A stretch of 64,000 bases of DNA from Heloderma charlesbogerti (lineage: Eukaryota > Chordata > Lepidosauria > Squamata > Helodermatidae). Numbering within the stretch: the stretch's first letter is position 1; each line of letters begins with the position of its first letter. A program made the translations under genes and the position numbers. Under the pieces are notes generated by a model, which was not told the origin of the DNA, made no database searches, and was given only the letters and a program-made list of their open reading frames with translations. Below, piece after piece: positions 17,273-37,339 of this stretch. The stretch lies in NCBI GenBank assembly GCA_026122225.1, contig JANEZZ010003061.1:868001-932000 (forward strand), given 5' to 3'.

Positions 17273-17392
17273 GAGCATATGATCCAGAATGAAGTATCTA
17301 TTTTAAGAAGGGTCAAACATCCCAATATTGTTCTTTTGATTGAAGAGATGGATATGCCCACTGAGTTGTACCTAGTCATGGAGCTCGTAAAG
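17273..17392 (+). CDS. DCLK1: DCLK1 exon: helix C and hinge (subdomains III-V)
   Basis: This 120-base, 40-codon phase-0 exon lies between acceptor gtggcag and donor gtatgt. It begins [18 protein letters not shown], where the Glu of NEVS is the helix-C residue that salt-bridges the catalytic lysine. It continues through [20 protein letters not shown] into the hinge, ending at VK. The long polypyrimidine tract just upstream supports the acceptor. Confidence 0.96.
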
Positions 17393-18351: not shown

Positions 18352-18359
18352 GTTCAGAG

Positions 18360-19241
18360 TAGGGATGTACGAAAGTCACTTACCTTTTCGCAGGGGTGCT
18401 CCGTGGTGAGGGGGAGGCGCTTCGGTTCTCCCCCCGAAGTTCAGGCGAGCGGGGGGAGCCGTCCCGCCTCGCCCGGCCGAAATTCAGGCCAGGGGGGGAG
18501 GCTTCCCACCTCGCCTGGCCAAAATTCAGGCCGGGGAGAAGCACCCCGTCTCCCTGGCCGTGAAACAAAAAGTAAAAACAAACAAACAAACAAAAACCCG
18601 TGATAGGCTATGTAACAATTAACGTAGCCTATCACGGCTAGATTTCCAAAGTCAGCCGTGATAGGTTACGTAAATCGTTACGTAGCCTATCACGGGTGAC
18701 TTTGGAGAGAAAAAAAAAAGCGCGTATGCAAATGGCGGCGCTCTATGGGCGCCGCCATTTGCGTTCCTTATTTGGTCCCGGTAGTCTACGTAAAGATGAC
18801 TACGTAGACTACCGGGACCAAATAAGGAACGCAAATGGCGGCGCCCATAGAGCGCCGCCATTTGCGTACGCGCTTTTTTTTCCCCCCCAAAGTCACCCGT
18901 GATAGGCTACGTAACGATTTACGTAGCCTATCACGGCTGACTTTGGAAATCTAGCCGTGATAGGCTACGTTAATCGTTACGTAGCCTATCACGGTTTTTT
19001 TTTTAATATATATATACTTTGTAATGGCGGCGGCAGCAGCCGGTCAGAAGACCGGCTGCCGCCCCCACCCCCGACGAAAGGCCGACGAACCACCGCCGGG
19101 ACCCGCTGCCGGGAGGGACATTCGCCAAAGGTAAGTCCCATCCCGGGGGGGGCCGGAGAATTTCACCGCCGATTTCGGGGGGCCGAATGCGTTGGCGCTC
19201 AGCCCCCCGAAGATTTGGGGAGAAATTCTCTGCCATCCCTA
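18360..19241 (+). mobile_element. hAT-like non-autonomous element with nested palindromes
   Basis: The element runs from TAGGGATG to CATCCCTA and is flanked by an exact 8-bp duplication, GTTCAGAG (18352-18359 and 19242-19249). This pattern fits the hAT superfamily. The interior is GC-rich, has no transposase, and contains a giant inverted repeat at 18598-18994. It is inserted in a CR1 3' end whose two halves lie at 18300-18351 and 19250-19416. Strand is arbitrary. Confidence 0.85.
18598..18994. repeat. Near-perfect 195-bp-arm inverted repeat made of smaller palindromes
   Basis: The left arm (18598-18792) and right arm (18801-18994) are reverse complements around an 8-base centre at 18793-18800. 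Within the arms are 40-bp palindromes built on ccgtgataggctacgtaa (18598-18637, 18656-18695, 18897-18936, 18955-18994). Palindromes on gcaaatggcggc also occur (18728-18762 and its mirror). Both arms could fold alone or together. Confidence 0.9.
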
Positions 19242-19249
19242 GTTCAGAG

Positions 19250-23476: not shown

Positions 23477-23653
<177 letters not shown>

Positions 23654-37205: not shown

Positions 37206-37339
37206 GTTTATGAACACCAGGATGGAAGCAAGTCTCTGAAGCTGGGAGATTTTGGACTGGCCACCATAGTCGATGGACCTCTTTACACAGTCTGTGGGAC
37301 ACCTACTTATGTAGCTCCAGAAATCATTGCAGAAACTGG
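37206..37339 (+). CDS. DCLK1: DCLK1 exon: DFG and activation segment to APE
   Basis: This 134-base exon starts after tttag and ends at donor gtaaac, leaving a split Gly codon (phase 2). It encodes [19 protein letters not shown], with the DFG magnesium-binding motif. The activation loop [20 protein letters not shown] follows, with the APE motif, and the exon ends IIAET. The preceding intron is the largest in the window, about 13.6 kb, and carries the intact L2 element. Confidence 0.96.

Follow-up and report, generated by a model that had tools for sequence, protein, structure and literature searches.

A nested palindromic Ac-like hAT element between DCLK1 exons of Heloderma charlesbogerti is one copy of a very large non-autonomous family whose arms appear to evolve in concert

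The window, that is, the whole 64,000-nucleotide stretch of Heloderma charlesbogerti DNA analysed here, carries an 882-bp insertion that is located between two DCLK1 exons, because exon motifs on the strand of the element occur both upstream, at 17273, and downstream, at 23483 (Table 1). Two further motifs on this strand lie downstream at 37299 and 37909. The 40-aa peptide of the upstream exon has DCLK1 as its best match among solved structures, and the exon motifs, including GGDLFDAI, are those that we take to be characteristic of DCLK1. Placement of the element in DCLK1 pre-mRNA, as the original prediction had it, is borne out by the + strand motifs at 17273 and 23483. Just upstream of the element, the segment 18130-18265 contains a short inverted-repeat element (GGGGTGGACAACTTGAGG ... 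CAGGTTGCCCACCCC) that by eye is an unrelated MITE. The segment 11055-11115 resembles the 3′ part of 5S rRNA and is probably a 5S-derived SINE; Rfam returns no match for it at the gathering score, and likewise returns nothing at gathering scores for the DNA of the palindromic element.

The insertion begins with TAGGGATG, finishes with CATCCCTA, and is flanked by an exact 8-bp direct repeat, GTTCAGAG. Its core is a main palindrome that is detected as two inverted repeats (131 nt at 94% and 81 nt at 99%), which jointly cover 18588-18792 and 18801-19004; counted from the start of inner palindrome P1 to the 8-nt centre, the arm is 195 bp. Palindrome P (40 bp) occurs twice and palindrome Q (35 bp) once in each arm, and the 46-bp palindrome C at the centre is shared half and half between the arms; the element in total has four 40-bp, two 35-bp, and one 46-bp central palindrome. 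The ends, the exact 8-bp duplication, the arms of about 195 bases, and the 40- and 35-bp palindromes had all been described in the original prediction, and each of them is confirmed, the coordinates given for the element being exact. The element folds far more stably than its shuffled versions (z = -37 as DNA and z = -34 as RNA; none of the 20 shuffles reaches this stability in either case), and its CpG observed/expected ratio is 1.14, versus 0.26 for the window. Its ORFs are short: those wholly or mostly inside the element encode 64-91 aa, and one ORF of 139 aa extends beyond the element end.

Table 1. Coordinates of the element, its parts, and the neighbouring DCLK1 exons in the window.
Feature	Position	Strand	Basis or remark
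Upstream DCLK1 kinase-domain exon, part, 40-aa peptide	17273..17392	+	Motif and structure match
Left target-site duplication GTTCAGAG	18352..18359	.	Exact repeat
Whole element, palindromic Ac-like hAT family member, 882 bp	18360..19241	+	Duplication, ends, further copies
Left terminal inverted repeat TAGGGATG	18360..18367	+	First 8 bp equal to the Ac/Ds ends in the accessible part of PMC3260210
AAAGGTAAGT, outward-pointing, near left end	18378..18387	-	
Main palindrome, left arm, 195 bp	18598..18792	+	
Inner palindrome P1, 40 bp	18598..18637	.	Located exactly
Inner palindrome P2, 40 bp	18656..18695	.	Located exactly
Inner palindrome Q, 35 bp, subfamily B loop (CT)	18728..18762	.	Located exactly
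Central palindrome C, 46 bp	18774..18819	.	Located exactly
Main palindrome, centre, 8 nt, altered in the window copy	18793..18800	.	Usual family centres AAAGATTT, flip AAATCTTT
Main palindrome, right arm	18801..18994	-	
Inner palindrome Q′, mirror of Q, also subfamily B state	18831..18865	.	Located exactly
Inner palindrome P2′, mirror of P2	18897..18936	.	Located exactly
Inner palindrome P1′, mirror of P1	18955..18994	.	Located exactly
AAAGGTAAGT, outward-pointing, near right end, sense to DCLK1	19127..19136	+	
Right terminal inverted repeat CATCCCTA	19234..19241	-	
Right target-site duplication GTTCAGAG	19242..19249	.	Exact repeat
Next DCLK1 exon found, part	23483..23629	+	Motifs GGDLFDAI and a 13-residue one

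The maize elements Ac and Ds have the ends C/TAGGGATGAAA and TTTCATCCCTA and are flanked by 8-bp duplications, according to the accessible part of their description (PMC3260210). The ends of the window element (C/TAGGGATG...CATCCCTA) match 8 of the 11 bp of the Ac repeat. The window family shares with Ac/Ds the 8-bp duplications, the C/TAGGGATG start, and the CATCCCTA finish, and with Ds also a short, non-autonomous build, whereas the terminal repeats of Ac/Ds (TAGGGATGAAA) are 11 bp long, versus 8 bp matching here; the nested mirror palindrome present in the window family is not mentioned in the accessible text on the maize elements (PMC3260210). The earlier designation of the element as hAT-like is supported by these Ac-type ends and the 8-bp duplications. 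With a length of 882 bp, short ORFs only, and 21,440 exact left ends in the genome, the element has the features of a MITE. Animal hAT MITEs, such as Mar of Drosophila, are likewise short and non-coding with terminal inverted repeats, but the part of the report that is accessible makes no mention of a nested palindromic core with concerted arms (PMC3517528). The terminal repeat of the window element is 8 bp, and its main palindrome starts more than 200 bp inside the element. In foldback elements of the Galileo type the repeats reach the element ends; those repeats are terminal, whereas the palindrome of the window family is internal, and the element is not of the foldback type. Galileo does share with it long inverted repeats that are able to fold back (accessible part of PMC4168063).

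A search of the same genome (2.30 Gb, 3,246 contigs) returned 11,148 first-look candidates, 40 of which were scored; the 39 places fetched besides the window copy are ranked as the most like that copy. The 8-bp duplication is exact in 23 of the 40 places and has at most one mismatch in 26, and these 26 duplications all differ in their letters. Duplications made by hAT elements have the consensus nTnnnnAn; among the 26, T occurs at position 2 in 9 and A at position 7 in 13. The 25-bp left end of the window copy itself has 21,440 exact copies in the genome (10,729 + 10,711), and a 19-bp right end, taken in the version that prevails in relatives and that the window copy lacks, has 30,888 (15,394 + 15,494); the reversed-pattern control is 0 for each. 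The element is one copy of a huge non-autonomous family in its own genome, and a single copy without relatives, an outcome that would have counted against the original prediction, is excluded. Searches of vertebrate-free collections returned 2 stretches in viral contigs (16-mer) and at least 119 in genome contigs (14-mer), with the longest similarity to the element among the best matches listed being 33 nt at 82%.

An alignment of 37 copies leaves out L150, which is the L149 locus on another contig, and the rearranged L167 and L168. L167/L181 (2095-2968) consists of the left end, an arm, an arm, and the left end again, without a matching duplication, and L168/L182 (2109-3306) has four arms with its duplication intact. 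At L172 (2019-3683), two family elements adjoin, with the 8-bp duplication GACCTGAC at all three sides, as if one element had been inserted exactly at the duplication of the other.

A second, content-blind sample comprises 40 of the 21,440 left-end places, drawn from those listed first (20 on contig C1 and 20 on C2-C11), all with an intact 25-bp left end; the duplicates L204 and L218 are omitted, which leaves 38 elements. A right end (at most one mismatch) with a matching duplication (at most two mismatches) is present in 22 of the 38, and for the remaining 16 the first 1,000 bp were scanned for modules. All 38 carry Q and either P or C modules, whole or half. With half modules counted, the orders Q P Q C R C Q P Q and P P Q C R C Q P P are common; the window type has the order P P Q C Q P P. 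Module strings are strictly mirror-image in only 3 of the 38 at the cut-off used, and self-alignment gives at least 100 paired columns in 27.

A preference for insertion into the palindromes of the family itself was considered and rejected, as it is suggested by the ranked places and absent in the left-end sample. Relatives occur in the 300-bp flanks of 14 loci among the 39 ranked places (L149/L150 taken as one, and a 16-nt match in L160 excluded), and the L158 duplication falls within the palindrome of another family copy. In the left-end sample, relatives occur in one of the 38 upstream flanks and in none of the 22 downstream ones, against a background of 2 of 59 segments (low-complexity filter on). 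The clustering in the ranked places is probably an effect of search ranking.

Palindromes are hard to assemble, and the loci of the pairs L149/L150, L203/L204, and L217/L218, which lie on different contigs or on a single one, seem to be duplicates of each other, as would result from uncollapsed haplotypes or from duplicated stretches of the assembly. An artefact in which the palindromes have been collapsed or wrongly folded is nevertheless extremely improbable as the source of arm identity: the copies lie on many contigs with different 8-bp duplications, the 299,622 fetched bases contain zero N, and each of the 37 aligned copies has a difference between its arms (indels counted) within 48 alignment positions of the centre.

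The consensus of the 37 copies is 876 bp long, and the copies diverge from it by a mean of 3.2% at non-CpG positions and 14% at CpG positions. Neutral rates are about 1-2 x 10^-9 per site per year. At such rates (the host's own may differ), 3.2% would correspond to some 15-30 million years, and the insertion in the window is therefore probably not very recent. The proposal of a recent insertion, made from the similarity of the arms, thus holds only in part.

In the majority consensus, the 195-bp arms differ by no substitution, and their sole difference is the length of a poly-A run. Such identity could be maintained if gene conversion continued to act between arms after a copy had been inserted in the genome, and raw non-CpG arm divergence is indeed lower within copies (0.0242) than between them (0.0305; 37 copies, 0 of 10,000 permutations). 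However, this raw effect stems from two columns that are diagnostic of subfamilies and is gone without them: within-copy divergence is then 0.0235 versus 0.0238 between copies, with 1,431 of 10,000 permutations as low. CpG sites give 0.2087 within and 0.2157 between copies (1,011 of 10,000 permutations as low). With the diagnostic columns removed, no post-insertion arm conversion is detected in the 37 copies, and for the sampled age class ongoing conversion is very unlikely. As far as is detectable, the arms of inserted copies drift independently, and homogenisation, which these copies do not detectably show, is a matter of the source lineage or of amplification itself. The idea that the arms are kept similar by gene conversion accordingly fails for inserted copies (0.0235 versus 0.0238) and survives in spirit for the source lineage, in which the arms change in concert.

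The two diagnostic columns belong to the loop of Q, where two adjacent bases are GC in subfamily A and CT in subfamily B. Left and right loops read GC/GC in 13 of the 37 copies, CT/CT in 15, CC/CC in 2, and mixed states (CC, CA, or a gap) in 7; the discordant combinations GC/CT and CT/GC occur in none. The agreement between arms is significant (Fisher p 2.7e-8, 28 concordant copies), and because the subfamilies are assigned from the arms themselves, what is informative is this between-arm agreement together with the absence of other separating columns: only four alignment columns, which form two mirror pairs, separate A from B (frequency difference at least 0.6).

It might be supposed that the palindrome is static, its arms having been made once and recently by inverted duplication and being too young to have diverged. 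The equality of within- and between-copy arm divergence, two columns apart, is what drift from identical arms predicts. Derived changes at mirror positions in both arms, found in both subfamilies, argue against such an origin, as do more distant members of the family. In nine diverged relatives, of 16 examined, the two arms agree with each other against the main family at 177 sites and differ at 121; shared sites outnumber differing ones in four of the nine, equal them in two, and are fewer in three, these relatives being single old copies in which later decay adds differing sites. Separate histories of left and right arms would be expected to make arms of the same side more alike, whereas same-side identity is 0.865 and cross-side identity 0.864 (27 of the 38 left-end-sampled elements, 241 of 351 pairs); of these 241 pairs, 125 favour the same side, 111 the cross side, and 5 neither. 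A static palindrome is on this evidence quite unlikely. A nearest-neighbour test, in which the partner arm is the best match for only 22 of 54 arms and the other 32 match an arm of another element on either side, is by itself no proof of concerted evolution, and the same-/cross-side pairs are the better test. Taken as observed, the two arms seem to have undergone concerted evolution in the source lineage, with repeated homogenisation. This is the arm homogenisation expected of template switching, and the data on the nine relatives agree with it in total, not element by element.

Selection for pairing would also give matched arms, if elements with mismatches do not transpose or are not tolerated and compensatory double changes accumulate with no copying between arms. 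The persistence of paired arms between elements about 10-20% apart and the recurrence of the same modules in all 38 sampled elements are consistent with selection of this kind. In 14 left-end-sampled elements, mismatches amount to 13.1% in the inner hairpins versus 7.9% in the outer arms (1,622 sites), a comparison based on the best self-alignment, which favours outer matches; for this reason the same-/cross-side test outweighs it. In these 14 elements, 89 of the 213 inner-hairpin mismatches are mirrored in both arms, which is predicted by copying and not by selection acting hairpin by hairpin. Selection for pairing also leaves the flips of the centre, described below, unexplained, and we regard it as an unlikely explanation.

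The centre of the main palindrome occurs in two orientations. Among the 37 ranked copies it is of the AAAGATTT type (GA) in 11 and of the AAATCTTT type (TC) in 15, while the remaining 11 have a centre that is altered or was not located; the ratio of 11:15 describes the ranked sample most like the window copy and is not a genome-wide ratio. Extended palindromic centres are found in L132 (AAAGATTTACGTAAATCTTT) and L138 (AAAGATTTAAATCTTT). Under a looser rule, both orientations occur in both subfamilies (4 GA and 9 TC in A; 9 GA and 7 TC in B). In contrast with the 2-bp centre, the six inner loops are essentially fixed in orientation (37, 37, 37, 35, 36, and 37 of 37 copies), the exceptions in the alignment columns being one flipped loop and two of other length; inversion of the spacer, as expected of template switching, is seen at the centre. 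In a second subfamily, comparison of four elements by eye shows that the centres of L192 and L219, once reverse-complemented, read like those of L202 and L217. A left-anchored count over the genome yields 1,285 GA (control 0) and 149 TC (control 3), in which some places are counted more than once and the GA number is inflated by relatives that have the C hairpin elsewhere than at the centre, as in L219. A 50:50 flip-flop is not claimed, because 11:15 comes from the ranked sample and the left-anchored counts mix in non-centre C hairpins.

The probable reading of these observations is that the family is an Ac-like hAT MITE in which hairpin-templated synthesis copies the palindrome anew from arm to arm. 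Since the element has only short ORFs, its transposase must, by inference, act in trans; hAT transposase supplied in this way would cut and move the element. A young, near-perfect palindrome would fold into a hairpin or cruciform, either while DNA is replicated or while a gap linked to transposition is repaired, and DNA synthesis may then switch from arm to arm, so that mutations would be copied and the centre inverted and sometimes extended. As a copy drifted, its arms would pair less well and arm-to-arm copying would stop. The rearranged loci L167/L181 and L168/L182 fit such a template-switch process. Template switching between the arms of inverted repeats homogenises the arms and inverts the spacers, according to the accessible part of PMC8604942, and both effects are shared with the window family (accessible parts of PMC8604942 and PMC8794818). 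The yeast arms in the former are 7-16 bp long, versus 195 bp here, although it also cites earlier reports of homogenisation of long repeats (PMC8604942), and the latter, in its accessible part, concerns RNA stems and not 195-bp transposon arms (PMC8794818).

By analogy, the palindromic core could itself be a part of the life cycle, with each round of amplification templating one arm on the other, proof-reading it, and flipping the centre; this extension of hairpin-templated copying is a speculative and rather doubtful one. The terminal hairpins of parvoviruses are nested palindromes that occur in flip and flop forms. The window family shares with them the nested palindromes and the centre in both orientations, but the parvovirus hairpins are terminal whereas its palindrome is internal, and the likeness drawn here is one of description. 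If the idea were true, amplification via a hairpin or cruciform would be a chromosomal analogue of flip-flop hairpin replication.

An autonomous partner would be expected to have the end pair TAGGGATGTACGAA / CATCCCTA and matching 8-bp duplications. The hAT transposase profile PF05699 gave 150 scored matches among 871 candidates in the same genome, with several open frames near 880 aa. No matching end boundary is present in the 1.0-1.2 kb of 3′ flank at nine transposase places, and no transposase partner with these ends occurs among the flanks read. By eye, five of the nine flanks (L223-L226 and L231) appear to represent the same young two-gene hAT, two copies of which are 98-99% alike over the flanks read; their outer flanks are homologous to their limits, which places the ends of this element beyond the stretch read. 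The two-gene hAT (L223-L226, L231, L232-L235) has frames of about 879 aa with PF05699 and, on the opposite strand, a Myb/SANT-like gene (PF13837, E 5.4e-9). The sequence TACATCCCTA, about 190 bp past a transposase stop, resembled a left end and was ruled out, as L223-L226 by eye continue alike beyond it. At L224, the two-gene hAT carries an insertion that looks like a right end of the family to which the window copy belongs. The partner of the family may be the two-gene hAT, another element, or one that is extinct.

The ingredients, namely hAT MITEs, palindromes, and template switching, are known singly. Their combination, with more than 21,000 exact left ends, palindromic modules, concerted arms, and an invertible centre, was not found in the open-access literature among the matches listed. 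No description of the family occurs among the matches listed in that literature (subscription papers and Repbase being outside its scope), and four sequence strings of the family are absent from the open-access texts searched. The original prediction was aware of no common family built in such layers; in its own genome, this family is in fact very common, and no publication on it occurs among the open-access matches listed. Long near-perfect palindromes are expected to be unstable, and despite this the genome carries tens of thousands of ends of palindrome-built elements. Because its many independent copies have arms, inner hairpins, and a centre with polarity, the family is a natural record in which copying between arms in the germline of an animal can be counted, and with this family it can be tested whether palindromes help a DNA transposon or merely burden it. 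As a caution, identity between the arms of a palindrome need not imply recent insertion.

Two smaller features recur within the element. AAAGGTAAGT at both element ends is what we take to be the full 5′ splice-site consensus. Its left-end occurrence is present in all sampled elements by construction of the search pattern, and 19 of the 22 elements sampled to their right end have GGTAAG within their last 300 bp. The right-end AAAGGTAAGT, which is sense to DCLK1, could be a candidate cryptic donor or a transposase-binding motif. Five ATGGCGGC/GCCGCCAT cores, which resemble the YY1 motif, are located at 18732, 18751, 18835, 18854, and 19024, with one in each half of each Q palindrome.
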